From contig JASGMC010000001.1 of the NCBI GenBank assembly GCA_030156625.1, positions 1-63,872 on the forward strand: a stretch of DNA of 63,872 nucleotides, given 5' to 3'. The translations under genes and the position numbers were made by a program. Shown here piece after piece: positions 34,101-47,930 of this stretch (position 1 is the first letter of the stretch; each line of letters begins with the position of its first letter). Under the pieces are notes generated by a model, which saw nothing but the letters and a program-made list of their open reading frames with translations, did no database searches and was not told the origin of the DNA. The DNA is from Methanoculleus sp. (GTDB lineage: Archaea > Halobacteriota > Methanomicrobia > Methanomicrobiales > Methanoculleaceae).

Positions 34101-34873
34101 ACGGCGTCAGCCTGGCGGTCTATGCATCGGCCTGGAAGGAGGATGCGGACCTTGCAGAGGTTTTTGTCAGGTGGAACAGTTATGCCTACGGACGGGGTAG
34201 TTTCGGTGAAGAGTCTCCTGAGACCTTCTCCGCGCAACTTGCCGCCGTCGACCTCACTTTCAACAAGACGGTGACCGACGAGTACGACCTCCTCGGGTGC
34301 TGCTGCTACTTCGGGACGCACGGCGGGCTGACCGGGGCGGCGCGGGCACTCTCGAACCGGGACGTGCCTGCCTACTACGGCGATACGCGTGACCGGGACA
34401 GGGTGGAGGTCAGGACACTTGCCGAGGAGGTGCGGCGCGTTGTCAGGGCGAGGCTTCTCAACCCGCAGTGGATCGAGGGGATGAAGCGGCACGGCTACAA
34501 GGGTGCCGGGGATATCTCGCGGCAGGTGGGCACCGTCTACGGCTGGGAGGCAACGACACAGGAGGTGGACGACCGGATCTTCGACGATATCGTCCGCACG
34601 TTCGTCCTGGATCCGGAGATGCGGCGGTTCTTTGAGGACGAGAACCCCTGGGCGCTGGAAGAGATCGGGAGGCGGCTGCTTGAGGCGCACGAGCGCGGTC
34701 TCTGGGATGCCAACCCGGATGTTCTCGAAGGGCTGCGGGCGGCGTACCTGGAGATGGAGGGCTGGATCGAGGACCGGATGGGCGATGCCGGAGGCGAAGT
34801 CCAGGGTGGCGCAGTCCGCGTGGTGACCTTGAAGGACGTGAAAGCGCTGCGGGGAGCACGGGAGAAAGAGTGA
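31172..34873 (+). CDS. CobN/BchH-type chelatase large subunit
   Basis: A 1233-residue member of the CobN/magnesium-chelatase H family, which binds a tetrapyrrole and inserts Co2+ or Mg2+ with ATP-driven partners of the ChlI/ChlD type. Family blocks include GTHGNLEFLPGKSVAPSD, IYNADNPPEGTLAKRR, MYWMASDIMWADGEQLSQT and FNKTVTDEYDLLGC. The length fits. It closes the uptake operon (4-nt overlap with the ATPase gene). A ChlI/ChlD fusion at 44.5 kb is a likely partner. In methanogens, CobN-like proteins are often found beside metal or corrinoid transport genes; the true metal cannot be read from sequence. Confidence 0.92.
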   Translation: MKVTIVAWGSELLQFSGAAREAGIALAAWQVHELKDDPEKRRRCIESCNGADVVLIHPSHDPVWDEILGGLGEGVPVIPFGYTDASWSASTVPLAVVSTVSAYFLYGGPENIGNLIRYVQAEVAGMDVAYDPPRETRWEGIYHPDVGAVFDDPDVYLAWYPSRHSIRVGLLFSRTHWVNGDLAVEDALIRELEKHYDVLPVFCFGVQDQGIGARSDPEVIDTFFKGRISALIDARTFTPPRDGDACIKALENLGVPVLHPLILYHRTEAEWRADTDGMRGSDVSWYVVLPEFLGAIEMLPVGAAESRDPAGTEGERHVPIAERVEKFVGRVGKWIDLAASPPAERRVAFILHNKPCASVEATVGAGAHLDTLESVARILRAMRDQGYAVECPESGRDLIEAIMNRKAVSDFRWTSVEEIVRRGGALALIEPDDYAAWFETLPPEVRTRICEAWGQPPGEEVNGVPPAMIYEGKIVVTGVRFGNAIVCVQPKRGCAGPRCDGEVCRILHDPGVPPTHQYLATYRYIEETFGADVIVHVGTHGNLEFLPGKSVAPSDACFPDIAIGTIPHLYIYNADNPPEGTLAKRRSYATLIDHMQTVMVASDLYAGLKELEEQIADYNRAKEIDRARTHALEHTIVDLLEQTGIADEIGFAAMHEQGAPFEEVVGVAHTAITRIADTRIPEGMHIFGEVPEGERRVEFIHAVMRYDGEVKGAVLRMMGHDASTADDALLRDAEVAAKALIAAILAGETPERAAERALSDRLRRHDHEALETIRAGVLDIEARIDDSDEIGSLLSGFAGGYIPPGPSGLITRGKPEVLPTGRNFYSLDPFRVPTRAAWRIGMRLAESVVAKYVDEHGRVPENIGMYWMASDIMWADGEQLSQTFSLIGVEPVWTDGRVRSYRVIPIEELGRPRIDVTVRMSGILRDCFYTSIELLDDAIREVATLDEPPEMNFIRKHALQGRGTARIFGSRPGTYGNGVSLAVYASAWKEDADLAEVFVRWNSYAYGRGSFGEESPETFSAQLAAVDLTFNKTVTDEYDLLGCCCYFGTHGGLTGAARALSNRDVPAYYGDTRDRDRVEVRTLAEEVRRVVRARLLNPQWIEGMKRHGYKGAGDISRQVGTVYGWEATTQEVDDRIFDDIVRTFVLDPEMRRFFEDENPWALEEIGRRLLEAHERGLWDANPDVLEGLRAAYLEMEGWIEDRMGDAGGEVQGGAVRVVTLKDVKALRGAREKE

Positions 34874-35016
34874 GCGGCGTGAAGACGGCGGATGGCGATA
34901 AGCGACGTTTCGGCAGAAACGGAGCTCGAGCGTCGTCAGATGCGCAGCCCGTTAACGCGTCGCGCTCCATCACGCCACCGGTAACCGTCTGCATGCGGCA
35001 CGTTCCCACTTTTCAC

Positions 35017-36198
35017 TCACTCCTGCTTTTTCAGCCTGAGCAGACATGCCGTGAGAAGCAGCGCACCCGCTGCAGCAGCTACCCCAAATCCCGGCGATGC
35101 GGGTGCCGCCGGGTCTTCGAGCGGGATTGCATACAGGTCGTTTCCATCGCTCACGACGATCGCCTTGCCGTTGGGAGACCATTGCTGCATCATGAATGCC
35201 GGGTTATCGGGGCCAAGGGATGCGAGGCCGGAGCCGTCGCTCTCCATCACCCAGAGCGCCTGGTTCCGCGACTCCGACCGGAAGGCGATCCCGGCACCGT
35301 CCGGCGACCAGACCGGTGATTTGTCCCGGTTTCCTGTTGTCAATTGCTCCGAACCCGATCCGTCGCTATTGATAACCCAAAGAGAGAACTCCGGCTGTGT
35401 TCCGGGCGGTGCCGCGACGACGTAGGCGATCCTGGTGCCGTCCGGGGACCAGGAATACCCGGAGACGTTCCCGTCGCTGAACGTCACCTGTCTCTTGCCC
35501 GTTCCATCGCTCTGCATCGTCCAGATCTCTCCGTTTCCCGACCTTTCCGAGAGGTATGCGATCCGATCCCCGTGCGGCTGCCACAGGGGCAGGCGCGCAT
35601 CCCCATCGGTCGTCAGCTGCTTCTTGTTGCCGCCGTCCGCGTCCATGATCCGGATATCGGCATCCTTCCGGATTGCCGAGAGGTTCACCGCAGGCGGCCC
35701 TTCTGCAGCGGGCGCCAGGAGGGTCTTCCAGACCGCCGAGTTGTCGAAGAGGCAGGAGGTATAGACGATCCGCCTCCCATCGGCGCTCCAGTCCGCCCCG
35801 TAGCCGGAGAGCGTCAGGCCGGGGAGGATGCGGCCGCTTTCGGTCAGGCGCATCCTCCTGGTCCCGTCCGGGTTCATCGTCCAGAGGTCGAGCCCTTCTT
35901 CGGTGCCGGAGAGGAAGAGGAGTTTCTTCCCGTCCGGCGACCAGGGATCGAACTCGGTGAAGAGATTCCACGAACCATTGTCCGTCACCTGCACCGGGCC
36001 CCCGTCGTCGCACTCCATCACCCGGATGCCGGAGTGGACTCCGTCGGACGAGACGAAGGCGATCCTGGCACCGTCCGGAGACCAGAAGGGGTACGCATCG
36101 AATGCCGAATCGTTTGTCAGTTGAACAACGGGTGCAGCCGCTGCCGGGGGAATGCACACGATCAGCAGGATGATGATGCATATCGTTTTTTGGTTCAT
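35017..36198 (-). CDS. TolB-like beta-propeller surface protein with PGF-CTERM
   Basis: A 393-residue exported protein: signal peptide starting MNQKTICIIILLIVC (an ATG 24 nt upstream is less likely), then about six or seven TolB/WD40-like blades with repeated SPDGxRIAF and LWVMxSDGSG motifs, then ASPGFG, a hydrophobic helix and RLKKQE, a PGF-CTERM sorting tail. It probably forms a propeller scaffold on the cell surface. It lies 20 nt after the six-cysteine gene and may be co-transcribed with it from the shared leader. Confidence 0.85.
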   Translation of the reverse strand: MNQKTICIIILLIVCIPPAAAAPVVQLTNDSAFDAYPFWSPDGARIAFVSSDGVHSGIRVMECDDGGPVQVTDNGSWNLFTEFDPWSPDGKKLLFLSGTEEGLDLWTMNPDGTRRMRLTESGRILPGLTLSGYGADWSADGRRIVYTSCLFDNSAVWKTLLAPAAEGPPAVNLSAIRKDADIRIMDADGGNKKQLTTDGDARLPLWQPHGDRIAYLSERSGNGEIWTMQSDGTGKRQVTFSDGNVSGYSWSPDGTRIAYVVAAPPGTQPEFSLWVINSDGSGSEQLTTGNRDKSPVWSPDGAGIAFRSESRNQALWVMESDGSGLASLGPDNPAFMMQQWSPNGKAIVVSDGNDLYAIPLEDPAAPASPGFGVAAAAGALLLTACLLRLKKQE

Positions 36199-36218
36199 AC
36201 ATACCTCTCCTGCGCGTC

Positions 36219-36617
36219 TCATGGGTATATCACACAGGAAGCAGAAGCATCCTCTCTACCAATATTTGTCCATATGATGACCCAGACCCAACATTCGGCA
36301 TGCACTTTTACTTCCACAGTATAGGAGGAAGCTGAAGGCGCCACATCTATATTGTCCGTACCGGACTGTATGCAGTAATCGGTATAGAGAGGTTTCACGA
36401 TCTCACTCGAGCCGCCAGGCCAACTCACTTTGATTGTTGTACTGAGTTCGCAGCTCGTGAACGTGAACTGTTGACTATAATCGAAACATCCACTTACATA
36501 CCAGTCTACTATAACATAGCGGGTACCGTCACCCCTCTGGTACAAGTCTGCAGAATTAATCTTTGCCGACGCATTCAATTTAACGTCCTGAACGGGACCA
36601 CAAGAACCAATTGGCAT
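36219..36617 (-). CDS. Six-cysteine protein of unknown function behind shared leader
   Basis: A 132-residue protein with no signal peptide and no recognised family. It is rich in beta-forming residues, with cysteines at 6, 44, 56, 82, 109 and 128 and aromatic patches (VDWYVSGCFDY, ECWVWVIIWTN). The even number and wide spacing suggest disulfides or metal binding. The ATG at 36617 is favoured because it aligns with the ATG of the radical SAM gene at 43204 when the shared leader is superposed. An in-frame ATG 36 nt upstream lies inside that leader. Codon use is less GC-rich than the core genes. It could be a target of the radical SAM system, which is speculation. Confidence 0.55.
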   Translation of the reverse strand: MPIGSCGPVQDVKLNASAKINSADLYQRGDGTRYVIVDWYVSGCFDYSQQFTFTSCELSTTIKVSWPGGSSEIVKPLYTDYCIQSGTDNIDVAPSASSYTVEVKVHAECWVWVIIWTNIGREDASASCVIYP

Positions 36618-36692
36618 CACATCACTATTCTGCTCGGCACATTTCCTTCCCATTGCAATACTATGTCACTCGAAATTTCGCAACAGTGCCTG
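36618..36692 (-). promoter_or_regulatory. Shared leader element, copy 1
   Basis: About 72 nt just before the ATG at 36617. Read on the minus strand it aligns with 43205-43275 at roughly 80 percent identity by eye, with shared runs such as TATTGCAATGG, AAATGTGCCGA and ATAGTG. It ends at the start codon in both places. No TATA box is evident just upstream in this copy. Confidence 0.65.
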
Positions 36693-37111
36693 GAGGAACA
36701 CGGAACCGCAACGGCTATCCCCTATGGCAGCCAACAGCCCTATTGCCCTCCGGGCACGCTTTTGGGGGCCGGGATACGACGGCAATCGGGGTTCCCGGCC
36801 CCCGTGGGATACCGTACACGGTGTCACCGATCAAGGCGTCAACGTTCTCCCATATACCTTTTCTGTGACAAACATCGAACTGTCGCGGCTGTACCCGGGC
36901 CGTTGCATTCTCCTGATACGCCCTTGTTGTTCCATCTCCCGGCAGTACGGCCGATTTCCAGTTGAAATATACCTCGATCCCCGGATCGTGGGTATGAGTG
37001 CATACTCCGGTAAGAACCCTGCATACCTTCCCCGAATATCGAAACCCGGCGAAATAATCGGCCTGCCTCCAATGCAGCCCCTCCCCGGGAGCGAAAGTGC
37101 GCGCCCGTCTA
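36693..37111. other. Intergenic stretch without a supportable gene
   Basis: Overlapping short open frames occur in several phases on both strands, none with a ribosome site, a recognisable domain or consistent codon use. The stretch lies between the leader of the six-cysteine gene and a gene remnant, and is probably eroded former coding DNA. Confidence 0.35.
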
Positions 37112-37285
37112 TCATCGGATATCCGTCCGCATGAACCGCGTGTATGCGGCGGCAAAGAAGACGACGGGATAGAGGATCAGCGCCACCACGCTCGACCAGA
37201 TTTCGCCGAGCGTATCTTCAAGGGTCACCCCGGGGGGGCGTGAATCCTCAGGATCAGGATGCTCCTTAGGGAGCGTCCTTCGAGC
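37112..37285 (-). pseudogene. 3' remnant of a membrane protein gene
   Basis: On the minus strand a frame ending in TGA at 37112 encodes a charged stretch (KEHPDPEDSRPPG) followed by a hydrophobic helix SSVVALILYPVVFFAAAY and TRFMRTDIR. It has no start: upstream it runs into the repeat that begins at 37282. It looks like the last helix of a membrane protein whose 5' part was lost. The family is not recognised. Confidence 0.5.
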
Positions 37286-37419
37286 ATCGTCAGGTGCGCG
37301 TCCGGTGAACCGTAGTGCTCGGGAATCGCGATCACCGGGGGCAGACGGGGAAGGGGCTCAAAAGTTCGATCTTTCTCGCATCGGCCGTTTTCCGGGCACC
37401 GCTCGGCATGGCGGGAGAG
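37282..37419 (+). repeat. Diverged repeat, copy of 43683-43820
   Basis: About 138 bp that align along their whole length with 43683-43820. Shared blocks include TCAGGTGCGCGTCCGGTGAA, TTTCTCGYATCGG, CCGGGCAC-like and CGGCATG. It separates two gene remnants, as if it or a related event broke a former locus. Confidence 0.7.
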
Positions 37420-37465
37420 CGCACGCGAGCAGCAGCAGGACGATACATATCGTCTTCAGGGTCAT
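37358..37465 (-). pseudogene. 5' remnant encoding a signal peptide
   Basis: Starting at ATG 37465 the minus strand encodes TLKTICIVLLLLACALPP, which resembles the signal peptide of the beta-propeller protein at 36198 (NQKTICIIILLIVC). After about 20 residues the frame enters the 37282-37419 repeat and stops. This is a truncated secreted-protein gene, likely cut by the repeat. Confidence 0.5.
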
Positions 37466-37487
37466 ACCGGATCTTGTCATAGAGTTC

Positions 37488-37814
37488 GTCCCAAAAAGAT
37501 CTCCGAACCTTCGGTATACCCTAACCGGAGCCTTTACTTCCCAGGTATCTACCATTAGAGCCGTATTCTGAGCAAGAAGGGTGAAATGGCTTTCCATTGG
37601 GTATCGCACCTTCGCACCTCCTGTGCTCAAACTCCGTTCCTGCCGGGACGTCGCATATCGCCACTCGGGGAACGACTGTCGGTACGACAGGAGTTTGAGA
37701 AACTTGAAGAGTTTCGAGCGAGGGTCCGGGGAGGTGCACCCGGCGAAACGGCGAGTGCATAAGCACCGATAGGTGCGAAAGGATGTCCCTCTCCCGGCAA
37801 TAGCGTTTTGGGAC
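37488..37814. repeat. MITE-like element with short inverted ends
   Basis: A 327-bp segment that starts GTCCCAAAA and ends TTTTGGGAC. Its left 150 bp match 16470-16621 (inverted), and its right half carries dyads such as CTGTCGGTACGACAG and AAACTTGAAGAGTTT. No gene is encoded that I can support. The right end touches a weak third copy of the shared leader (about 37785-37845). Confidence 0.55.
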
Positions 37815-37824
37815 AACTTCATAT

Positions 37825-38535
37825 TCACAATACTCCTGTATACACTCTGGCCGATACCAGTTTCCACAGAAGCAATACGATCTTCGCACCGATTGCCAGC
37901 CCCACGGGAACAAAGACCGTCACCAGTGCCTGGCGAGTGGAGAGGCTTCGTGCGTGCCGCATACCTGCTGTCCAGAGGAACCCGCACCAGAGAAGAACCG
38001 GAATCGCAACTCCAGCATCGATCAGCGCTACGGCAGCTGCATGCGCCGCCACACGAGAGGGGATGAAATAGTCCTGCACCGGCAGGGAGATGAGCTGGAG
38101 GAGGGCTAGATGGAGGAGGGCCCCGACGATCAGGGGCACGCATCCGTATCCTACATTGGCCAGCGTCCTGAGAAACGTACCCCGGCCTTTGTACAGGTAT
38201 GATACCCCGTAGAAGACTGCCGAGTAAGATACCCATGCCAGGAACGGTGAGAGAGCCGTTGCAAACAGGCCCACGTATATGATCGGGTGCGCGGACGGGT
38301 CGGTGAGCTCCAGCGTTCTGGTGTACGCGGTGATCGTATCGTAATTGCCGACGATCTCAACCAGAAAAAGGCTACAGACGATCAGAGCTGGAATCTTTAG
38401 ATCGACGCGCTTGACCGGTAGTTCTGCAAAAAATGTATCGGGAGAAAGGCAGAGCAGCCCCAACTGTCGGAAAAATGAGTTTATCCGAGGGGAAGCGATT
38501 TCCTGCAAAGGAGAGATATAATCACTGATTTTCAT
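37825..38535 (-). CDS. Yip1-family-like membrane protein
   Basis: A 236-residue integral membrane protein with a short cytoplasmic N-terminus (SPDTFFAELPVKRVDLKIP, resembling the Yip1/YIPF-type start with F-F-x-x-L) and about five membrane helices. The ATG at 38535 lies inside the last codons of the preceding gene (14-nt overlap); an ATG 45 nt further upstream has no better support. Function is unknown, but the overlap ties it to the repeat-domain membrane-anchored protein before it. Family assignment rests on the overall helix pattern and the N-terminal motif. Confidence 0.65.
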   Translation of the reverse strand: MKISDYISPLQEIASPRINSFFRQLGLLCLSPDTFFAELPVKRVDLKIPALIVCSLFLVEIVGNYDTITAYTRTLELTDPSAHPIIYVGLFATALSPFLAWVSYSAVFYGVSYLYKGRGTFLRTLANVGYGCVPLIVGALLHLALLQLISLPVQDYFIPSRVAAHAAAVALIDAGVAIPVLLWCGFLWTAGMRHARSLSTRQALVTVFVPVGLAIGAKIVLLLWKLVSARVYTGVL

Positions 38536-39817
38536 AAGCCAGCCTGATTGCATAATCAACAGGACTCCATAGTAACTCAACTGTCCTGCCGTGCATCACG
38601 GTGCCGTTCAGTACCTCGTTTGCGGGTGTGCGGTTGGCCACCCACAGCTCAAGTTCTGTGGGCGAAATTGAGAACGCTCCTATCTCCAATTCGGGATGGT
38701 CCTTCCGGAACTGCAGCAGTTCAGCCACGAGTTGTTCACGCTCTTTCTCGTAATCCACATCATGGATGACTGTAAGGGTCCAGTCACCGATCTCTCTGCC
38801 CTGGAGGGCCTCCATCCCTTTTTCGTCCTGTACCCTCCTTCTTTCGCTCCCTATGGAGTACGCATAGAGGACAACCCGTTTGTTGTCCGGGTCAAATCCC
38901 CATTTACTGATGCTGAATGTTCTGTTATTGCCGCGTTGTAGATCTTTTAACTCCTCTCTCACCTCCTTCGGCACCCCGTCCGGCGTCATGTTCGCCGCAT
39001 CCAGCGCTCGTTGCATGAGTTCGGGCACATCCGGCTCCAGAACGGCCTTAAAGGTCCAGCCGCTGATCTCTCTGCCCTGAATGGCATCCACCTTCGTTTC
39101 ATACCCGTCATTCGGCCATGTGAAGTGCGCATAGGCGACGACCAGTCTGTTCCGGGGATCAAGCTCCCACGTCCGTATGCCCCCGATCTGCGCGCTGATC
39201 TTCTCCATCTCCTCTTTTACTTCGTCGGGCAACTCTTCCGGCGTCATGTTCGCCGCATCCAGCGCTCGCCTCACGGTCCGAAGCATATACGGCTCCCAGG
39301 CGACGTTAAAGGTCCAATCGCCGACCTTTCGGCCCTGAACGGCCTTCAGCTCCTTTTCATGCTCCTCATTCCATGCGAAGACTGCATGGATGACGACCTG
39401 CTTGTTCCGGGGATCAACGTCCCACTTCCAGATGATATCCTCAAACTGCGTGGCGTTTTTCATCTCTTCGATCACGTCGTCGGGCAACTCGTCCGGCGTC
39501 ATATTTACCTCTTCCAGCATTCGTTCCACGGTTCCGGACCTATACCAGGACCAGTATATCTCCTGGGCACGCTCCCAGATCTCGTCCGATGTCATGTTCT
39601 CAACCTCCTGTTCTTCTCCAGGTACCTGTTGCGGCGTTGCATTCCGGCTTATATCCCCCGGTAAGTTCGACCCTGTCGGCGACCCCTCCGGCGTCACGTT
39701 CCCGGTCCCCGGATCGCTGCCCTCGTCATTGTGCACTGCTACGATCAGTGCTAACGCGCAACAGACGACTCCGATTGCGACAACAGCGGCGATGATTCGT
39801 GCAACGGACTCTGTCAT
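38522..39817 (-). CDS. Membrane-anchored protein with three tandem repeat units, unknown family
   Basis: A 431-residue protein: N-terminal membrane helix (RIIAAVVAIGVVCCALALIVAV), a Pro/Gly/Thr-rich linker, then three copies of a unit of about 90 residues. Each unit opens NMTPxELPxEV(R/K)EEM, continues with W(D/E)xDPxNxxVVxYA and ends AxQGRxIxxWTF. A C-terminal module of about 70 residues (LLQFRKDHPELEIGAF to GTVMHGRTVEL) is shared with the 40794 gene. No known domain recognised; many sequons suggest it faces outside. The first 60-110 residues are nearly identical in DNA to its paralog, pointing to recent duplication or conversion. Confidence 0.75.
   Translation of the reverse strand: MTESVARIIAAVVAIGVVCCALALIVAVHNDEGSDPGTGNVTPEGSPTGSNLPGDISRNATPQQVPGEEQEVENMTSDEIWERAQEIYWSWYRSGTVERMLEEVNMTPDELPDDVIEEMKNATQFEDIIWKWDVDPRNKQVVIHAVFAWNEEHEKELKAVQGRKVGDWTFNVAWEPYMLRTVRRALDAANMTPEELPDEVKEEMEKISAQIGGIRTWELDPRNRLVVAYAHFTWPNDGYETKVDAIQGREISGWTFKAVLEPDVPELMQRALDAANMTPDGVPKEVREELKDLQRGNNRTFSISKWGFDPDNKRVVLYAYSIGSERRRVQDEKGMEALQGREIGDWTLTVIHDVDYEKEREQLVAELLQFRKDHPELEIGAFSISPTELELWVANRTPANEVLNGTVMHGRTVELLWSPVDYAIRLAYENQ
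39591..39715 (-). repeat. Near-identical block shared by two paralogs, copy 1
   Basis: About 125 bp matching 40575-40699 with only a handful of differences, covering the linker from TPEGSPTG to EEQEVENMTS. The flanking repeat units are far more diverged, which argues for gene conversion or a recent unequal exchange. Confidence 0.85.
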
Positions 39818-39862
39818 TCTCCTCCTCCATCAGCCCGGGGTGACGGTGCCATATGGCTCTAT

Positions 39863-40026
39863 AATACCTGAACTGTCCTGTCATGCATCATGGTGCCGTT
39901 CAGTGCCTCTTTTGCGGGTGTATGGTTGGCCACCCGCAACCGAATTTCTGTGGGAGATGTTACGAAATTCACTGCCTGCACTTAGGGCTGGTCATCTCAA
40001 AGATACAGCAGTTTCTCTTCTGTACT
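39863..40026 (-). pseudogene. Remnant of a third paralog
   Basis: Between the two paralogs the minus strand encodes TSPTEIRLRVANHTPAKE and ALNGTMMHDRTVQVL before a stop. This is clearly the C-terminal module of the flanking genes (TSPAHMEMWVRNRTPENE and so on). Upstream the match continues weakly (ELLYL, DDQP) but with in-frame stops. It has no start codon and is a decayed third copy. Confidence 0.75.
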
Positions 40027-40794
40027 TCAATCTGTCCCCGGTCCCCTCGATGCAGGTTCGGTCTCTTTCATCTCCTCCCACATCTCCTTTGGTGCGCCTC
40101 CAATTAGCTCGATTGTCCTGCCGTACATCACGGTGCCGTTCAATGCCTCGTTTTCGGGCGTACGGTTGCGTACCCACATCTCCATATGTGCTGGTGATGT
40201 TATGATAAAGCCCGATATCTCCAATTCAGGATGGTCCTTCTGGAATTGCAGCAGTTCGGCCGCAACCTGCTTACGTTCGTTCTCGTAATCGATATCGTGA
40301 ACGACCCTGAAGGTCCAGCCACAGACCTGCTTGGCCTGAATTGCCTTCACTTTCTTTTCATCCCGTATGGAGTACGCGTGGATGATGGCCAGTTTGTTCT
40401 CCGAATCAAATTCCCATCTGCTTATACCAAACTTTCTGTCTTCATAGGTTCGTTGCAGTTGTTCAATCTCTTCTCTCAACTCTTCCGGCAACTCTTCCGG
40501 TGTCATATTCGCCTCTTTCAGTGCTTCCTTTACGGGTAGAAGCAGTTGTAGATCTTCCGATAACTCTTTCGATGTCATGTTCTCAACCTCCTGTTCTTCT
40601 CCAGGTACCCGTTGCGGCGTTGCATTCCGGCTTATATCCCCCGGTAAGTTCGACCCTGTCGGCGACCCTTCCGGCGTCACGTTCCCGGCTCCCGGACCGC
40701 CGTCCTCGTCAGGAGGGTACACTGCTACGATCGTCGCTCCCGCACAACAGATAATTGCAAGTGCGATGATGATCCGTAGGGTCGTTTTTGTCAT
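40027..40794 (-). CDS. Membrane-anchored paralog with one repeat unit
   Basis: A 255-residue paralog of the 39817 gene: N-terminal helix (LRIIIALAIICCAGATIVAV), the same linker, a single repeat unit (NMTPEELPEELREE to QVCGWTFRVV) and the shared C-terminal module, then a short charged tail. The difference in repeat number (one versus three) suggests expansion or contraction by recombination. Function unknown. It lies 13 nt after the nine-cysteine gene and on the same strand, so read-through from the radical SAM operon is possible. Confidence 0.75.
   Translation of the reverse strand: MTKTTLRIIIALAIICCAGATIVAVYPPDEDGGPGAGNVTPEGSPTGSNLPGDISRNATPQRVPGEEQEVENMTSKELSEDLQLLLPVKEALKEANMTPEELPEELREEIEQLQRTYEDRKFGISRWEFDSENKLAIIHAYSIRDEKKVKAIQAKQVCGWTFRVVHDIDYENERKQVAAELLQFQKDHPELEISGFIITSPAHMEMWVRNRTPENEALNGTVMYGRTIELIGGAPKEMWEEMKETEPASRGPGTD
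40575..40699 (-). repeat. Near-identical block shared by two paralogs, copy 2
   Basis: Partner of 39591-39715 in the same frame and orientation. Confidence 0.85.
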
Positions 40795-40807
40795 GTACTC
40801 CGCCCTT

Positions 40808-41374
40808 TCAGCCCTTGGTTACATTTCCTTTTGCGTCGATCAAAAACGTCACCAGAGGCACTATATCGTGGTCCGGGAGACCGCAATTAAAGATACCTGT
40901 TATCTCGTAGATCTTCACCTTCGTAGCCTCTGTTTCTGTCCCGCGGGGCATCTGCCAGTCACCGGGTCTGATGTCCAGGTTGTCAAACTGGTAGAACTTC
41001 CAGCTGGAAAACTCGTCACTGTTGCCGCCCAAAAACTCGGCGCAGACCGCATGGCCGAAGCCCTGTGAGTTGTTTATAAGCGACACCATGTAGAAGTCCA
41101 GATCGAAGGTCCCCTCGATGTAACAGTGTTCGGGGCAGCCGTCCTTCTCCATCCAGTAGCAGCCTGCCAAGTCTTGAAGATGATCGAGGCATTTTCGGGT
41201 CCGGGCGTACCGTATCACCACGTTTGGCAGGCAATCGGCGTTGTTCCAGGACCCCGTTCCTCCTCCGCAGTCAGGAAGCCCGGGACGGAAATACCTGATC
41301 CTGAAGGGTAGATACACGCCTGCCGAGACGTGGCAGTCCATCCAGTCCCCCCAATCGCTCCATCCCATACTCAC
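40808..41374 (-). CDS. Nine-cysteine protein, possible transglutaminase-like fold
   Basis: A 188-residue soluble protein with cysteines at 14, 36, 48, 62, 72, 80, 84, 111 and 164. The block KCLDHL (C62), GHAVCAEF (H108) and KFYQFDNLDI (D131) has the order and rough spacing of the Cys-His-Asp triad of transglutaminase/papain-like folds, and RPGDWQMP follows. This is a motif-level guess, not a family match. The ATG overlaps the P-loop gene by 4 nt, so it is the third gene of the radical SAM operon. It may be the substrate of the radical SAM enzyme, or a peptidase/cross-linking partner. Base composition is lower in GC than the core genes. Confidence 0.6.
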   Translation of the reverse strand: MSMGWSDWGDWMDCHVSAGVYLPFRIRYFRPGLPDCGGGTGSWNNADCLPNVVIRYARTRKCLDHLQDLAGCYWMEKDGCPEHCYIEGTFDLDFYMVSLINNSQGFGHAVCAEFLGGNSDEFSSWKFYQFDNLDIRPGDWQMPRGTETEATKVKIYEITGIFNCGLPDHDIVPLVTFLIDAKGNVTKG

Positions 41375-42378
41375 ACCTCCAGATGACCATCACGAATCAG
41401 ATATTGCGGTAAAATCCATCCATTGCAATAGATCGCGTTCTCCTCTCTTCGGATGATATCAGAATCTGCATACTGCTGAAACGCCCAGAATTTGTTGTTA
41501 TATGGTGCATATGGTGAATTGTCGTTGCCCAGTGGGGTACCTACAGGTTTTTCTTTAATTGTCCTATACACAGCTAAGGGATCTGTGTTTGCTTGCCCAA
41601 TTTCATTGATTAACTGACAGTCCAAGTAGACAGATGGCTGGTAGCAGAGAGTCCGGGCAGTCCTTGAGTAATAGTTCAATTTCAAATGTCTATTGCTGCA
41701 TTCTCCGATGATTACAACATCACAGTCTTCTTTTTTCACCCTTTTCATAAACTTGTGGTAATCATAGCCGTACCATGTCATGCTGGGAAAAATATCCCAA
41801 TATTCTCCGGGGAATGCACCTGCCGCAATCGCTGTTTTATCGCTCTTTGGTAATGTCATTCTCGGTTCAAACGTATCAAAACCGAAGTTTTCTGGCATAT
41901 GAAGTTGATACTGCTCATCCACACAGGGGCCATCAAGGCATGCAGGAGTTTTTGTAATGACTTTTGTTACTTCCTTCTGGTGGATATTGTCCCAAAAAAG
42001 CATGAAGTCAGGGTGGCAAGATTCTACATATGTCTTCCAGGAATCGCTGAACTGATACGACATCGGCACATTTATACGCTCAAAGAGGTCGGCGAAAGCA
42101 GCACCAGTGGGCGTATAAGGATGCCATAATTCAAAGATGAAGACATCATAGCCTTTCGGAAGCCACTTTTCAAATGCATCTCTGCTTTTTGCTGCTTCCA
42201 GCGGCATATTATACTGATAGATGTTCTCACGCAAATACAAACCTACGTCATACTGGCCTTTAATTCGCTGTATGCACGCTACCTTCAAACCTTCGTTTTT
42301 GAAGTGCTTCTCCAGTGCAATTGCTGTTGTCGTTTTACCTTGATTCGAAAGTGAAGCCAGAACATATACTTTACTCAT
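41371..42378 (-). CDS. P-loop NTPase of the MinD/CobQ-like type
   Basis: A 335-residue protein with an N-terminal P-loop, SLSNQGKTTTAIALEKHF, at residues 9-26, a second nucleotide-fold strand VFIFELWH, and several isolated cysteines (ACLDGPCVDE, GECSNRH, TLCYQP, DCQL). The shape recalls MinD/BioD/CobQ P-loop proteins that use ATP to drive metal insertion or modification, but no closer family is recognised. It overlaps the radical SAM gene by 8 nt and the nine-cysteine gene by 4 nt. Codon use is AT-richer than the surrounding genome, suggesting transfer. It could energise or gate delivery of the substrate to the radical SAM enzyme. Confidence 0.7.
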   Translation of the reverse strand: MSKVYVLASLSNQGKTTTAIALEKHFKNEGLKVACIQRIKGQYDVGLYLRENIYQYNMPLEAAKSRDAFEKWLPKGYDVFIFELWHPYTPTGAAFADLFERINVPMSYQFSDSWKTYVESCHPDFMLFWDNIHQKEVTKVITKTPACLDGPCVDEQYQLHMPENFGFDTFEPRMTLPKSDKTAIAAGAFPGEYWDIFPSMTWYGYDYHKFMKRVKKEDCDVVIIGECSNRHLKLNYYSRTARTLCYQPSVYLDCQLINEIGQANTDPLAVYRTIKEKPVGTPLGNDNSPYAPYNNKFWAFQQYADSDIIRREENAIYCNGWILPQYLIRDGHLEV

Positions 42379-43204
42379 AATCTAACCTCCTGCAACAAGT
42401 TTCGAACTGATCTCGACATTTTTCTTGCTGTATATGCTCCCTGAATAATACATCACGTATTTTTTGCGGAAATTTTCCGATGGTATGCTGGTTTCGTGAG
42501 CAATCCCAATACGTCCCATCAGGAAGAACGGAAAGCCCCAGTATCCCTGCAATACAACCTTTTTCCACGCAGGTCGCGGTACAGAGAATCCCTTCTTGCT
42601 CCACTCGTTCCTTGACCCGTTGCTTCTCGGATAACCAGTCCGAAAACGATAGAGGATCTAACCCATTTTCATGAATCGGGTGATAAAGATTGAAGTTGAG
42701 CAGGTAAGACCCTGTTTCGATACAGAGATCTATGATATGATCGATGCACTTCAGATTCTGTTTGTTGGCGGTAAATGAGATGCTGTGGCGAATGTTATTC
42801 TCGTCCAGTAACCGCAGTGCTCTCACCGCGTTTTCGTAACTCCCGGCACCACGGATGAAATCGTGAACGCGGCTATTTCCGTCAATGCTGATCTGAATCC
42901 CGTCGTTTCTCCGGAAGAGATCGATGTACTGCGGGACAAGGATCCCGTTTGAACTCAGGGCAACATACCCGTTCAAACTTCGTACAATGCTGCATACTTC
43001 GCCGAATTGCGGATGGAGAAGGGGCTCCCCGCCGCTCAGAATGATCGTACTCTCTGGGAGAGGAAGATCTGCCTGCAGGAAGTCGGTACTTACCTCTCTT
43101 ATCATCTCCAGTGGCATCGAGGTATTTCCTTTGTTCAGGTAGCAATGCCTGCACGAGAGCTGGCAGTAGTCGACTATATGGAGGTCAAGGAAGTTCGCAG
43201 GCAT
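42371..43204 (-). CDS. Radical SAM enzyme with SPASM/twitch-like C-terminus
   Basis: A 277-residue radical SAM protein. The CxxxCxxC motif binding the SAM [4Fe-4S] cluster is at C14, C18 and C21 (DYCQLSCRHCY). SAM-binding features follow: SGGEPLLHP, ALSSNGIL and ISIDG. The C-terminus has many cysteines (TCVEKGCIAGI, WDCSRN, EKC, ETCC) with the LPDGTYWDC pattern, typical of SPASM/twitch maturases that carry extra clusters and modify peptides or proteins. First gene of a three-gene overlapping operon, preceded by shared leader copy 2. AT-richer than neighbours, probably acquired. Peptide or protein maturation is the favoured role; the substrate is unknown. Confidence 0.9.
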   Translation of the reverse strand: MPANFLDLHIVDYCQLSCRHCYLNKGNTSMPLEMIREVSTDFLQADLPLPESTIILSGGEPLLHPQFGEVCSIVRSLNGYVALSSNGILVPQYIDLFRRNDGIQISIDGNSRVHDFIRGAGSYENAVRALRLLDENNIRHSISFTANKQNLKCIDHIIDLCIETGSYLLNFNLYHPIHENGLDPLSFSDWLSEKQRVKERVEQEGILCTATCVEKGCIAGILGLSVLPDGTYWDCSRNQHTIGKFPQKIRDVLFREHIQQEKCRDQFETCCRRLDYE

Positions 43205-43275
43205 TCATACCACTATCCTGTTCGGCACATTTTCTTTCCATTGCAATATTGCGTCACGCAAGATTTCGTAATACT
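43205..43275 (-). promoter_or_regulatory. Shared leader element, copy 2
   Basis: The 71 nt before the radical SAM start, matching the leader of the six-cysteine gene at 36618-36692. A TATA-like AATATTAAG lies about 45 nt further upstream (near 43318), which would place the whole element in the 5' untranslated RNA. One frame through both copies reads like a peptide tail ending LQW-x-x-NVP-x-RIV and a stop at the next start codon, but it has no good start codon of its own. Confidence 0.65.
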
Positions 43276-43489
43276 TAACTTGAGACTCTTCATCATGCTT
43301 GCGATGATTTTGAAATTACTTAATATTTTCCCTTTGAGATTACGCTCCGAGCCCATCAAATTCTGCGCATTTCCGGTTTATGGCCCTCCCACTCCAACGC
43401 ACAACGCTCTACCCCTCTCATCAACCTCCCCGTTCCCGGCGACGGGGCAAGCATGGCGGCGATGTGCGATGGTTCGTTACGCGACTGGC

Positions 43490-43820
43490 CGGAGGGTGCA
43501 ATGTTTTGCTAGGAACAGAGCTTGAGAAGGCCGAAGGCCTTCGAGCGGGAGTGTGAGGCACCGTGAGGAACGACGTTCCTCTGGGAACGGAGTTCGAGCA
43601 CCGGCAGGTGCGAGGTGCGAAGAACCGGAGGAAGAGAAGACCTTTGGTCTTGGACTGGCGACTGGCCGAAGAACAGGAGCAGGAGCACCGTCAGGTGCGC
43701 GTCCGGTGAACCGTCGTGCCCGGGAATTGGGATCGCCGGGAACAGGGCGGGAAGAGGTTCAACAAATCCGTTTTTCTCGTATCGGTTGGTTCCCGGGGCA
43801 CTACCCGGCATGACGGGGAA
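43490..43820 (-). repeat. Hairpin-module repeat region
   Basis: Minus-strand reading shows modules of the same kind as 61.7 kb: CGAAGGCCTTCGGCCTTCTC, CTCTGTTCCTAGC, AAGACCAAAGGTCTT and GCACCTGCCGGTGC. The part 43683-43820 is the partner of 37282-37419. The flanking stretch 43276-43489 shows only AT-rich promoter-like DNA near the radical SAM operon and no gene. Confidence 0.7.
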
Positions 43821-44085
43821 GCCGGGATCGGTCGGACGGCGAAAAACGGGACGGTGACGGCGCGGGATTTTATGTTATAAATGGTAATATAGTATTACTT
43901 GGTATTAACAATAGTAAATTATATAATACTGCCCGTTCTATCTCTGCCTGGCGGGCGGTGGCGGAACCTCCTGTTCCCCGGCCCGGGCCGCAGAAGGGCC
44001 ATGGCCACCTCACCGGGCTCCCGGAGTTCATCGCCGCCGCCTGCCGAACTGCTCTGCACGGCTGGCGGGGCAGAGGTGATTGACC

Positions 44086-44418
44086 ATGAAGAAACGTATT
44101 CAATCCGAGAAGGGCGAGATCCTCCTTGACACCGACCGTGACGCCTGGCTCTATCTCGCGCCGCGGGGAGGTGACGCAGGCGGGGCGTTCGCGCGCGGAA
44201 AGGACCTCTTCCTGCACGAAGAGGAGGGGCTGCCCGAGACCTATTACATCTACTCCTGGTCGATGGAGCCCGGCGAAGACGAACAGCTCCAGGCAATCTC
44301 TCTCGTCTCCGCCGAACAGTTTCTGGAACTGCGGGGGCTCATGCTGAACGCATACCCGGAGCAGAGGGGGAGCGAGGTGCTGCGGTCCTACGGCTACGGC
44401 GTCGCGGAAGAGTTCTGA
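44086..44418 (+). CDS. Small hypothetical protein
   Basis: A 110-residue acidic cytoplasmic protein (MKKRIQSEKGEILLDTDRDA) with no recognised domain, signal or membrane segment. The ATG at 44086 lies 7 nt after GAGGTGA, which decides it over a TTG two codons upstream. Upstream, 43870-43930 is AT-rich with several TATA-like sequences. Composition matches the host genome. A GC-rich hairpin follows 20 nt after the stop. Confidence 0.75.
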   Translation: MKKRIQSEKGEILLDTDRDAWLYLAPRGGDAGGAFARGKDLFLHEEEGLPETYYIYSWSMEPGEDEQLQAISLVSAEQFLELRGLMLNAYPEQRGSEVLRSYGYGVAEEF

Positions 44419-44437
44419 GACCACATGGTTCCGGGCG

Positions 44438-44458
44438 GGGAGAGGCCGGCCCTCTCCC
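44438..44458 (+). terminator. GC-rich hairpin after the small hypothetical gene
   Basis: GGGAGAGG (44438-44445) pairs with CCTCTCCC (44451-44458) across a 5-nt loop, extended by one further GCG/CGC pair. No long T run follows, so termination is a guess; it also separates this gene from the chelatase gene. Confidence 0.4.
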
Positions 44459-44517
44459 GCTCGTGATTTGTTACGAAATTGAAATTCTTTAACATCTATT
44501 GCATCGTATTTTCATAT

Positions 44518-46536
44518 ATGTCATATCAGGCGCGGAGAAATGTCCTTCCGTTCACCGCCATCGTCGGCCAGGAGACGATGAAACGTGCGCTCATCCTCAA
44601 TGCCGTCAATCAGGGAATCGGCGGCGTACTCATCCGCGGCGAGAAAGGAACCGCAAAATCTACTGCAGTCAGGGCGCTTGCCGACGTGCTCCCCGAGATC
44701 GACGTGATCCGGGGCTGTCCGTACAGTTGCGATCCTGCAGGTGACGACGGCATGTGTACGACCTGTGCCGAAAGGAAGACCTCGGGCGATAATCCGGAAG
44801 TGGAACGGCGCCGGGTTCGCGTCATCGATCTCCCGCTTGGAGTGACCGAAGATCGGGTGGTGGGCACTGTCGACGTGGAACGAGCGATTCGCGAGGGGAA
44901 GGTAACCATCGATCCGGGCATCCTCGCGGCGGTCAATCGCGGGATCCTCTACATCGACGAGGTCAACCTGCTCGACGACCACGTTGCCGATGTGCTCCTT
45001 GATGCCGCTGCGATGGGCGTCAACGTGGTGGAGCGGGAAGGTATATCGTTCTCCCACCCAGCCCGGTTCATCCTGGTGGGTACCATGAACCCGGAGGAGG
45101 GGGAACTGCGGCCGCAACTGCTCGACCGGTTCGGGCTGCAGGTAACTGTGGAGGGGATCGCGGACACCGCCGAGCGTGTGGCAATCATCAGGGCCGCCGA
45201 GGCGTTCGAGCGCGATCCCGGCGAGTGCCGGGAGGCATTCCGTGCGGCGCAGGAGGAACTGCGCGAAAAGATTGCCGATGCGCGGGTGTTGCTTCCATCT
45301 GTCACTGCTGACGATGACCTCCTGAATGCGGTGGCGGAAGCATGCGTCCGACTTGGGGTCAGGACCCACCGTGCCGATATCGCCGTCGTCCGTACGGCGA
45401 AGACGATCGCCGCTCTTGACGGGCGGACCGCAGTTACTCGCGACGACGTCCGGGAAGCCATGGAACTCGCGCTCCCGCATCGGATGCGTCGAAAACCGTT
45501 TGAAGAGCCCAGGATCGATCCGGAAGATCTTGACAGAGCACTGGATGATGCCGGGAAGAAGCATGGCGACTCTCCCCGGGATGGTGGGGAGCAAGGCGGT
45601 GACGAGCGCCCCGGCGGGCATGACGGAGAGCCGCCCCCTTCCCCGGGAGGTGCCGCACACGAAACCGTTTTTCCGGTCGGAAACCCGGTCGATGTCAGAA
45701 AAATGAACCTGCCGGAACGGCGGGATACTCTTGAACGGCTAAGACCCTCCGGCCGGCGGCTCGAGACGTTCTCGGCGAGAAACATGGGAAGATATGTTTC
45801 TGCGCGGTATCCGACCGGCACCGGCGATGTCGCACTCGATGCCACGCTCCGGGCCGCCGCCCCGCACCAGTCGGTGCGCGACAGGAAGGAGATGGCGGTC
45901 ACCGTCCGCGGAGAGGATATCCGTGAGCGGGTCCGGGTGGGGAAGGTCTCCGTTGCGTGCGTCTTCGTAGTCGACGCCAGCGGTTCGATGGGAGCCACAA
46001 GGCGGATGGAGTCGGCCAAGGGCGCGGTCCTCTCGATGCTGCTGGACTCTTACCGGCACCGCGACCGCGTCGGTCTTGTGGCGTTTCGAGGAAACAGCGC
46101 CGAGACCCTCCTCCCGCTCAGCTCAAGCGTCGATCTCGCGCAAAAGCAACTGGAAGATCTCCCTACCGGCGGGAAGACGCCGCTTTGTGCCGGGCTGATG
46201 AAAGGCATGGAAGTTCTCCTGCAGGAGCGGCGGAAGAACGGCGAGGTGATCCCGATGATGGTCGTCATCTCCGATGGCCGGGCGAATGTTCCTGTGTCGG
46301 GAGACGTGCGCCATGAGGTTCTCGGCATCGCAGAGGAGATCCAATCGCACGGCATCCGCACGGTGGTCATCGACACGGAGGAGACTGGGGGCTCATTCCT
46401 CGAGTTCCGGCTGGGCTACTGCAGGGCCGTCGCGGAACATGCTGGTGGCGGGTACTACCCGATTGCCGACCTCTCCGCCGGGCTCCTGCAGGAAATCACG
46501 GCGGCCGAACGGGATGCGATGGTGCATCCCGCCTAA
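44518..46536 (+). CDS. Chelatase ChlI/ChlD fusion (AAA plus VWA)
   Basis: A 672-residue fusion of the two accessory chelatase subunits. Residues 1-340 are a ChlI-type AAA domain: FTAIVGQETMKRAL, Walker A GEKGTAKST, a cysteine set CPYSCDP and CTTC typical of archaeal/cobalt types, Walker B ILYIDEVNLL, and NPEEGELRPQLLDRFG. A proline/glycine/acidic linker follows, then a VWA domain with MIDAS motif DASGSMG and TPLCAGL. It drives metal insertion by the CobN/BchH-type subunit, probably the protein encoded at 31.2-34.9 kb. Start ATG at 44518 (MSYQARRNVLPF). Confidence 0.93.
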   Translation: MSYQARRNVLPFTAIVGQETMKRALILNAVNQGIGGVLIRGEKGTAKSTAVRALADVLPEIDVIRGCPYSCDPAGDDGMCTTCAERKTSGDNPEVERRRVRVIDLPLGVTEDRVVGTVDVERAIREGKVTIDPGILAAVNRGILYIDEVNLLDDHVADVLLDAAAMGVNVVEREGISFSHPARFILVGTMNPEEGELRPQLLDRFGLQVTVEGIADTAERVAIIRAAEAFERDPGECREAFRAAQEELREKIADARVLLPSVTADDDLLNAVAEACVRLGVRTHRADIAVVRTAKTIAALDGRTAVTRDDVREAMELALPHRMRRKPFEEPRIDPEDLDRALDDAGKKHGDSPRDGGEQGGDERPGGHDGEPPPSPGGAAHETVFPVGNPVDVRKMNLPERRDTLERLRPSGRRLETFSARNMGRYVSARYPTGTGDVALDATLRAAAPHQSVRDRKEMAVTVRGEDIRERVRVGKVSVACVFVVDASGSMGATRRMESAKGAVLSMLLDSYRHRDRVGLVAFRGNSAETLLPLSSSVDLAQKQLEDLPTGGKTPLCAGLMKGMEVLLQERRKNGEVIPMMVVISDGRANVPVSGDVRHEVLGIAEEIQSHGIRTVVIDTEETGGSFLEFRLGYCRAVAEHAGGGYYPIADLSAGLLQEITAAERDAMVHPA

Positions 46537-46543
46537 AACCCCT

Positions 46544-47884
46544 TCACCGGCAGAGCGGCAGGAGTTTCTCGATCAGGCGTTCCACCTGCCGGACGGCCGT
46601 CCCGACGTAGGCGTCCGGGTCGAGGAGGGCGTCGAGTTCCTCGCGGGTGACGAACTCCGTGACCTCGGCTCGCTCACCGAGCACCTCGGCGAGATCCCGG
46701 TCTTCGGCGAGCGCCTGCATGCTCGCCGTCCGCATCGCCTCGTGGGCATCCTGCCGGTTCATGCCCCGTTTCGTCAGGTCGATCATCACCGACTCGGCGA
46801 GATTCACCCCCCGGAGCATCATCAGGTTCTTCCGGATGTTCTGCCTGTTGAATTCGAGGCCTTCCATCACGTCGATCATCACGTTGAGGATGTGATCGGT
46901 CAGCACCGACGCCTCGGGGAAGAGCACCCGCTCGGGGGAGGAGTTCGTCAGGTCGCGCTCGTCCCAGAGGACGTTGTTTGCCAGGGCCGGCTCGACCGCG
47001 GACCGCACGATCCGGGCAAGGCCGCAGACCTGCTCGCTCTTTATCGGGTTTCTCTTGTGGGGCATCGTGCTCGAACCCACCTGCTTCTTCCCGAACGCCT
47101 CCGCGAGTTCCCCGATCTCGGAGCGCTGCATCAGCCGGAGTTCAAGGCCAATCTTGTCCAGCGTCGTCGCGATGTTTGCAAGGAGCATGAAATACTCCGC
47201 GTAGCGGTCCCGCGCGATGATCTGGTTGGAGACATCCACGGCCCCGATCCCGAGGAACTCCATCATCGTCTCCTGGATCTCGATACCGGCATCCCCGAGG
47301 GCCGCCTGGGTGCCTACGGCACCGGTGAGCTGCCCGACGACGAGGCGCGGGCGCATCTGGCGGAGCCGCTCGATGTGGCGGGAGACTTCGCTCGCCCAGA
47401 TGGCGAACCGGAGACCGTAGGTTGTCGGGACGCCGATCTGCCCGTGGGTGCGGCCGGCGCAGACGAGGGTCTTCGTCTCGGCGCTCCGGGTGAGGAGAAT
47501 GCAGAGGAGTTTGCCCAGTTTCTCCTCGATGAGCGCGAGGCTCTCGCGGACCTGCAGGGCCGTCGCCGTATCCAGGATGTCGTTCGAGGTCGCCCCGTAG
47601 TGAATCCACCGCCCTGCGTCGCCGCAGACCTCGGTGACGGCCTTGACGATCGCCATCATATCGTGGTTGATCTCGGCCTCGATCTCCTTCGCCCGCTCGA
47701 GGCGCGCCTCGGGCGCAGAGGCCGCGATCGTCTCCGCATCCTCGCGGGGGATCATCCCGTGCGCCGCCTCGGCACGGGCCAGCGCCACCTCTGCCGTGAC
47801 GATCGCCCGGAAGCGGTTCTCCTCACTCCAGACGGCACGCATCTCGGGGGTGCCGTACCGGTAGTCGATGGGATGGATTGCCAT
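46544..47884 (-). CDS. purB: Adenylosuccinate lyase
   Basis: A 446-residue PurB, which cleaves SAICAR and adenylosuccinate in purine synthesis. It begins AIHPIDYRYGTPEM and carries the fumarase/aspartase signature SSTMPHKRNP, THGQIGVPTTYG near the active histidine, and the usual C-terminal helices. A T-rich TATA-like element (47911-47920, minus strand) about 30 nt before the ATG suggests a nearly leaderless transcript of its own. It sits 46 nt after the ACS operon. Confidence 0.96.
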   Translation of the reverse strand: MAIHPIDYRYGTPEMRAVWSEENRFRAIVTAEVALARAEAAHGMIPREDAETIAASAPEARLERAKEIEAEINHDMMAIVKAVTEVCGDAGRWIHYGATSNDILDTATALQVRESLALIEEKLGKLLCILLTRSAETKTLVCAGRTHGQIGVPTTYGLRFAIWASEVSRHIERLRQMRPRLVVGQLTGAVGTQAALGDAGIEIQETMMEFLGIGAVDVSNQIIARDRYAEYFMLLANIATTLDKIGLELRLMQRSEIGELAEAFGKKQVGSSTMPHKRNPIKSEQVCGLARIVRSAVEPALANNVLWDERDLTNSSPERVLFPEASVLTDHILNVMIDVMEGLEFNRQNIRKNLMMLRGVNLAESVMIDLTKRGMNRQDAHEAMRTASMQALAEDRDLAEVLGERAEVTEFVTREELDALLDPDAYVGTAVRQVERLIEKLLPLCR

Positions 47885-47910
47885 AGTTGGTACCTGTTTG
47901 CCTTACCGCG

Positions 47911-47920
47911 TTAAAAAAGA
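47911..47920 (-). promoter_or_regulatory. TATA-like box of purB
   Basis: TCTTTTTTAA on the minus strand, 27-36 nt before the ATG at 47884, between the stop of the CooC-like gene and purB. Confidence 0.4.
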
Positions 47921-47930
47921 GGTCGTGGCG

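Follow-up and report, generated by a model that had tools for sequence, protein, structure and literature searches.

The 63,872-nucleotide (nt) stretch of contig JASGMC010000001.1 of Methanoculleus sp. (assembly GCA_030156625.1), hereafter called the window, contains on its minus strand three adjoining genes, whose products are a radical S-adenosylmethionine (SAM) enzyme (rSAM), a protein with a P-loop (PL) and a protein with nine cysteines, the cargo. We hold with middling confidence that these genes form a modular maturation cassette, in which rSAM modifies the tandem W-x-D/N/E motif at the N-terminus of the cargo, most likely by forming cyclophane cross-links, and PL handles cargos that start with Met-Gly. 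The genes and the motif are located as follows.

42371..43204, minus strand: rSAM, a radical SAM enzyme of family A2 with a twitch-like C-terminus, proposed Trp-repeat maturase; 277 amino acids (aa), ATG start; Pfam PF04055, 1.2e-18
41371..42378, minus strand: PL, a P-loop protein with a predicted SIMIBI-type nucleoside triphosphatase (NTPase) domain (residues 1-163) and a C-terminal domain of unassigned fold; 335 aa, ATG start
40808..41374, minus strand: cargo, a nine-Cys protein with the N-terminus (MS)MGWSDWGDWMDC and a domain with conserved C48, N51, H108, Q129 and N/D132; 188 aa, GTG start
41336..41362, minus strand: tandem W-x-D repeat (WSD WGD WMD), proposed modification site; match of a blind pattern, in the frame of the cargo

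The initial annotation had described three genes overlapping by 8 and 4 nt, the third encoding a protein with nine cysteines; the overlaps are real, and the cysteines were counted again on the translation. The 4-nt overlap between PL and the cargo exists because GTG is taken as the start of the latter. An alternative ATG at 41368, two codons past the GTG, gives a product of 186 aa that begins MGWSDWGDW and leaves no overlap with PL, and it is this ATG, not the GTG, to which the start of the cargo in relatives corresponds. The interval first given for the set is right at its lower end, and its upper end, 43275, lies 71 nt past the rSAM start at 43204.

The presence of rSAM is linked to the way in which the cargo begins. 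Thirty-one PL loci were examined, and setting aside four without the 3′ end of PL (G012 among them, which has rSAM) and one without the Met-Gly start (L055) gives 26 PL-cargo junctions. All eight cargos at junctions with rSAM start with MGW or MGGGGW, and 17 of the 18 at junctions without rSAM do not (Fisher p 5.8e-6, a value that is too optimistic because the test treats the loci as independent, although they are related by descent). The PL tree, which requires at least three changes of the rSAM label, and the blind pattern search given below both bear on this dependence. The sole exception without rSAM is G405b (L098), where PL is cut short behind a transposase-like gene and the genome has no rSAM at 1e-40. 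Six of the eight rSAM-linked cargos have the tandem W-x-[D/N/E], which reads WSD-WGD-WMD in the window, WSN-WGD-WAN in G010, WSD-WGN-WAN in G049, WIS-WGN-WND-WGE-WSD in Methanolobus (L054), WGE-WGD-WSD in Methanophagales (L048) and WGD-WGN-WSD in the Archaeoglobus-type G275. The open reading frame (ORF) of the cargo begins at the motif and continues for at least 132 residues in all eight, and rSAM precedes PL in seven of them, sitting in L048 behind a propeller gene. Among 61 genomes (its own included), rSAM is found in four (E <= 1e-25), every time directly 5′ of PL, so that the genes do co-occur. At 1e-40 family A2 is present in seven of 232 genomes of the class and 16 of 392 of the phylum; for PL the numbers are nine of 61 (its own genome included), 17 of 232 and 15 of 392 in the phylum sample.

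The linkage extends to loci that have no PL. Fifteen regions with a family A2 rSAM were taken, two of which also have PL, and in six of the 13 PL-free regions (L123, L124, L131, L132, L133 and L134) a W-repeat gene lies within 0.8 kb downstream; that of L132 encodes a protein of 743 aa with eight units (WGDWSGDWSGDWSDWSDWATDWGGDWGAD). In the PL-free loci resembling ANME-1 (anaerobic methanotrophic archaea), the products do have a pre-segment before the repeats. L048 and L131 have a cargo domain in common: in L048 it occurs with PL and no pre-segment, and in L131, which is PL-free, it follows both an RWERWRA-type pre-segment and an additional rSAM whose start resembles a twin-arginine signal. 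From this comparison of sequences, PL may replace a leader-like pre-segment. As a separate observation, in L132 (3314-7029) and L134 (genomes G438 and G322, family f9) the rSAM carries an additional C-terminal region and is followed by W-repeat proteins that open with eight W-x(1-2)-D units in the first locus and ten in the second, and the surrounding small genes resemble, by eye, an integrated virus or plasmid.

A blind search points the same way. In the 392 genomes the pattern (TGG NNN RAY)3 was matched 22 times, at 15 sites belonging to 14 genomes, and the reversed control pattern six times, in five genomes. Seven of the 15 sites are in frame in an ORF of at least 100 aa, and a family A2 rSAM is present in the locus of five of these seven (the window, G049, G275, G311 and G350, the last having a longer frame on the opposite strand); the other two, G125 and G521, are simple 9-nt repeats. 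The hypergeometric value for pattern and rSAM is 9.4e-5, counting genomes and including out-of-frame sites. As background, three W-x(1-2)-[DNE] units within 12 residues occur in 16 of 1126 distinct ORFs of at least 100 aa from the context loci and the window, of which ten are rSAM cargos or neighbours, one is the G009 cargo and the remaining five include two PL proteins; ORFs with an identical C-terminal end were removed from this set, and the window cargo, sharing its end with a fusion in G012, is outside the 16.

The window rSAM matches the Pfam family Radical_SAM with 68.3 bits against a cut-off of 29.5; the CxxxCxxC motif (C14, C18, C21) is invariant in seven of seven aligned homologues, and so are C217-x12-G230-x4-C235 and C270 at the C-terminus. 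Twitch and SPASM enzymes are marked by the motif CX9-15GX4C together with further C-terminal cysteines, and rSAM has both. Pfam SPASM (PF13186) has no match in the window rSAM, and a distant relative in L132 reaches 23.5 bits against a cut-off of 21.5. Among solved structures, the peptide maturase SkfB comes closest in sequence (1.6e-16). The window rSAM stays under the cut-off of all 25 NCBIfam families listed; the best E-value of any of the seven rSAM members is 2.2e-27 (TIGR04340), and YhhB is matched by five of the seven (best 1.9e-12). The PADLOC models of anti-phage systems gave nothing specific: rSAM is similar to pVip (1.4e-13), and at 0.01 no match was obtained for PL, the Cys protein, the C1-family protein encoded beside it or the W-repeat protein of L132. 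Relatives of rSAM in viral contigs are confined to three distant phage-like contigs (32-34% identity). In these contigs (L137, L138 and L139) two rSAM genes are consecutive, the first being the distant relative, and no W tandem was present at the threshold used. A second rSAM with a twin-arginine-like start also lies directly before the family A2 rSAM in L128 (9-1055), L129 and L131 (reverse strand); in L128 it scores 21.5 bits for TAT_signal against a cut-off of 22.7.

As to the chemistry, a review (PMC11002830) reports that OscB connects the Trp C7 atom with the beta carbon of an Asn or Asp located at i+2, and that XncB links C6 of Trp to Arg or Asn at i+2, giving three-residue cyclophanes; PMC9062424 treats repeats of Aro-x-Asn and Aro-x-x-Asn as a signature of such products. 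On these precedents, W-x-D/N tandems accompanied by a twitch-like rSAM are best read as a cyclophane substrate. It is conceivable, if doubtful enough to rank as a tentative alternative, that rSAM modifies the cargo but makes Cys thioethers of the sactipeptide or ranthipeptide kind, or another change of Trp or Asp. SkfB and other peptide or protein maturases are its closest solved structures, and cysteines do occur near the W repeats in the window, G049, G009, L048, L124, L126, L131 and L133; yet none is found near the repeats of Methanolobus L054, L132 and L134, where the Trp/Asp repeats are equally long or longer, and the letters that the repeats have in common are W and D/N/E.

The initial annotation proposed a protein-modification system with the Cys-rich product as substrate or partner. 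The reading with the best support keeps this product as the substrate, with the Trp repeat as its likely mark: recognition of the cysteines is unlikely, because the third gene is exchangeable while the N-terminal Trp motif stays with rSAM. In G010 (L031) the third gene encodes a beta-type protein unrelated to the Cys protein, and other unrelated proteins take its place in Methanolobus (L054) and in the Methanophagales bin (L048).

Besides the shared ancestry of the loci, several observations weigh against cyclophane formation on the cargo. On the side of the enzyme, the C-terminal cysteines of rSAM are fewer than those of a full SPASM domain and permit at most one auxiliary cluster, and for GrrM/OscB, the known cyclophane maturase family, the window rSAM scores 51 of 310 bits, which places it outside the described family of three-residue cyclophane-forming enzymes (3-CyFE). 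On the side of the motif, weak versions exist (WAE-YAD in G138a, one WDE in G205), and many units of L132 and L134 are W-x-x-D and therefore do not fit a link between positions i and i+2. No W tandem lies downstream in seven of the 13 PL-free regions (L122, L125, L127, L128, L129, L130 and L135); in L125 and L127 the contig ends just 5′ of rSAM, and in L128 and L129 a cargo-like gene is present without the tandem. The rSAM reading is interrupted in three of the six positive regions, by a stop in L123 and L134 and by a split between frames in L133. The absence of rSAM at PL loci was judged in the stretch around each locus, the genome of L046 having rSAM at another locus (L054) and that of L049 being covered in this stretch only. 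The Walker A motif of PL reads GKI in place of GK[ST] in G010 and G049. Finally, motif and enzyme can part: G012 has rSAM and a cargo whose motif was lost by deletion (outside the 26 junctions), and the G009 cargo retains WFD-WGD-WVD in a genome (94% complete) where no PL or rSAM was found.

The last case, together with G405b, could also mean that the W-x-D/N motif is an unmodified tag for docking or assembly and that rSAM has another target. We regard this as improbable, considering that motif and rSAM are linked in both directions, PL-free loci included, and that in G019 and G020, genomes without rSAM, the Cys-domain proteins have different starts and no motif.

The second gene, described initially as a P-loop NTPase of unassigned family, keeps that description. 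PL reaches the cut-off of no Pfam or NCBIfam family, and in the predicted model residues 1-163 adopt a SIMIBI fold of the SRP54/ParA type; residues 165-335 are hardly covered by the structure matches listed, a gap that is no evidence of a new fold, and end in a conserved CNGW-LPQYL stretch. A search of the structures in the Protein Data Bank (PDB) with PL profiles gave nothing significant (best E 1 and 0.2 in two runs). CbiA is matched by six of 16 PL members (best 0.0038). An assignment to CobB/CbiA was rejected, the hhalign alignment covering 36 columns only, at Walker A, and the Pfam and NCBIfam matches of the window protein being below threshold. No PL relatives were found in viral contigs. 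Thirteen PL loci include Methanolobus, Methanococcoides, Methanomethylovorans, Methanospirillum, Methanoregula, the Methanophagales bin and Archaeoglobus. In one of the 16 scanned members, L054:5884-7005 from Methanolobus psychrotolerans, a twin-arginine signal was detected (PF10518, 2.7e-5).

The junction behind PL is tight, the cargo starting 2-9 nt past the end of the PL match in 25 of 26 junctions and at -1 nt in L056. The products start with Met-Gly (in a few, Met-Met-Gly, Met-Cys-Gly or Met-Asn-Ile-Gly), and no Sec signal was seen at these starts by eye. Cys-domain proteins, beta-type proteins and arrays resembling Ig/PKD domains are the types of cargo found behind PL. Several rearrangements at the PL gene are signs of cargo exchange. 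G012 and the window genome are of one genus, and the contig corresponding to the G012 locus (L045) bears the name Methanoculleus sp. Identity of G012 to the window DNA falls to 92.0% in 41651-43495, compared with 99.85% in 34403-41206 and 98.1% in 43658-48000; in addition, an open frame of G012 joins PL residues 1-244 to cargo residues 41-188, the W motif being gone. The DNA of G010 follows that of the window across rSAM and into PL (42132-43496, 81.6%), beyond which both the end of PL and the cargo differ. Partial 3′ ends of PL precede further cargos, two in G159 and one each in G138a and G057, and the cargo behind the G138a stub begins MGWADWADV. Two of these loci can be noted in their own right: L030:7127-8596 (G012) is an in-frame PL-cargo fusion without the W motif, although the adjoining rSAM is intact, and in L088:5367-9215 (G159), where partial PL ends with further cargos behind them are interspersed with C1 genes, the array looks like a store of spare cassettes.

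The Cys protein has no Pfam or NCBIfam family match and no relatives in viral contigs, and its structure model (three sequences) has a predicted local distance difference test score (pLDDT) of 31, unusable for fold. In an alignment of ten rows, C48, N51, L69, C72 and H108 are invariant, and all nine rows that extend far enough have Q129 and, at position 132, Asn or Asp. A Cys-His-Asp triad had been suggested; its Cys and His are borne out by this conservation, and the third position is Asn or Asp, not always Asp, so that a Cys-His-Asn/Asp site is plausible from the alignment. Since the Cys profile also matches Ig domains, the 17 Cys-domain genes were sorted by hand. Four of the ten genomes having the domain (G009, G019, G020 and G029) contain neither rSAM nor PL. 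A match to the C1 family follows on the same strand within 60 nt (between profile matches) after 14 of the 17 genes, the others being L053, L036 and a truncated copy in L088. PD40 propellers often come after cargos of the beta and Ig types, and genes of the Yip1 type are recurrent neighbours. These arrangements suggest a paired membrane partner for each type of cargo.

In the window, these neighbours and the cassette make up an accessory island:

34857..43910, no strand: accessory island, limits approximate; flanks 941, 122, 1083 and 123 nt apart in G001, G014, G015 and G023
40027..40794, minus strand: C1-family gene, with an N-terminal membrane segment (by eye) and a repeat domain; partner of Cys-domain cargos
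38522..39817, minus strand: second C1-family gene, with more repeats
37825..38580, minus strand: Yip1-domain membrane protein, recurrent near cassettes; PF04893, 2.5e-18
36219..36653, minus strand: orphan beta protein of cargo type, resembling by eye the C-terminal part of the G028 cargo (L033:8039-8725)
35017..36222, minus strand: PD40 beta-propeller protein; PF07676, 4.5e-32

The orphan beta protein has no PL match in front of it, and the propeller protein ends in what we take to be a PGF-CTERM-like sequence. Six regions from relatives were compared: in four (G001, G014, G015 and G023) the island is missing and the window flanks (left of about 34855, right of about 43900) are joined, and in the other two the contig ends too early to tell. 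With its flanks nearly adjacent in four relatives, the stretch of about 9 kb is an accessory block. This agrees with the description of the genes as AT-richer than their surroundings and placed in a repeat-rich accessory stretch: the 1-kb median of GC content is 0.64, whereas rSAM has 0.48, PL 0.43 and the gene of the Cys protein 0.55; the lowest 1-kb value of the window (0.42) begins at 41501, and 11 families of direct repeats occur in 34500-44500, mostly inside and between the two genes downstream of the set. A 115-nt direct repeat (79%) is present at 37282-37396 and 43683-43797, and further copies adjoin the chelatase gene in G009, G010, G012 and G016; it may aid rearrangements at the island.

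The genes flanking the island, presumably CobN-like and Mg-chelatase-like, raise the question of whether rSAM and PL belong to a cofactor pathway of the tetrapyrrole or cobalamin type, with the Cys protein unrelated. The rSAM resembles NirJ/AhbD models far below their cut-off, and PL has weak CbiA/MobB/CobA matches at Walker A. We consider this hardly credible: the flanks lie nearly side by side without the island in the four relatives, the cassette has other neighbours elsewhere, with no chelatase gene seen in the L046, L049 and L054 stretches, and the alignment of PL with CobB is limited to Walker A.

Returning to the maturation cassette, we infer the following course. The rSAM would take the freshly translated cargo as its substrate and, at the N-terminal W-x-D/N/E tandem, most likely form a C-C bond between the Trp ring and the beta carbon of the acidic or amide residue that comes two places later; the outcome would be three-residue cyclophanes, each with a loss of two hydrogens. 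PL would be a dedicated handling factor that presents, holds or targets, with or without rSAM, cargos starting with Met-Gly and without a visible signal peptide. The finished cargo, possibly with a Cys-His-Asn/Asp hydrolase domain, would then act with the membrane-anchored C1 protein of the adjoining gene. A further and speculative step, to which we give a low probability, would make the stapled N-terminus a tag for non-Sec export or display, handed to the membrane by PL with its signal recognition particle (SRP) fold; cartridge-like cargos with their own membrane partners (C1 or propeller) would then give methanogens, methane oxidisers and Archaeoglobi, across several archaeal families of the phylum, a polymorphic system of surface effectors.

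Comparison with described systems places the cassette under radical SAM maturation of peptides and proteins, and not as a member of the triceptide family. With triceptide systems (XncB, OscB/GrrM, MscB, YxdB) it shares a radical SAM enzyme with a C-terminal Cys motif beside a product with tandem aromatic-x-Asp/Asn, and such an adjacent product is present here. It differs in being archaeal, in having the PL NTPase and exchangeable cargos, in missing the GrrM/OscB cut-off, and in carrying the motif at the very N-terminus of proteins of 132-403 aa in PL loci (743 aa in PL-free L132). Unlike classical ribosomally synthesized and post-translationally modified peptides (RiPPs), the eight rSAM-linked junctions contain no short leader-core precursor. 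The twitch/SPASM maturases SkfB, the CteB type and anSME have the same rSAM core and C-x12-G-x4-C spacing, but about 165 residues align with SkfB, and the window enzyme has a short C-terminus, fewer cysteines and a different target motif. TIGR04340, the rSAM of the 'ACGX system', is the best NCBIfam match and is found in seven of seven members, but the window rSAM scores 93 of 400 bits. The modelled fold of PL residues 1-163 is that of SIMIBI NTPases (SRP54/FtsY, ParA/MinD, GPN, CbiA/CobB), from which PL differs by exceeding no family cut-off and by its own C-terminal part. Transglutaminase- and papain-like cysteine hydrolases share with the Cys-domain the order of conserved Cys, His and Asn/Asp in the sequence, whereas the domain has no family match. 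In the titles and abstract openings returned by literature searches no description of this system in archaea was found, and the terms searched in PMC4158269 gave nothing relevant.

If our reading is true, what would it mean for these organisms? Cyclophane-type radical SAM chemistry, described in the literature consulted for bacterial peptide products, would act on the N-termini of whole archaeal proteins. Methanogens and methane-oxidising archaea would gain a protein modification that is open to direct search, the W-x-D/N repeats being a sharply testable substrate. There would also be a new family of NTPases with an SRP fold and a fixed genetic partner, and possibly a new archaeal family of cysteine hydrolases with a paired membrane protein.

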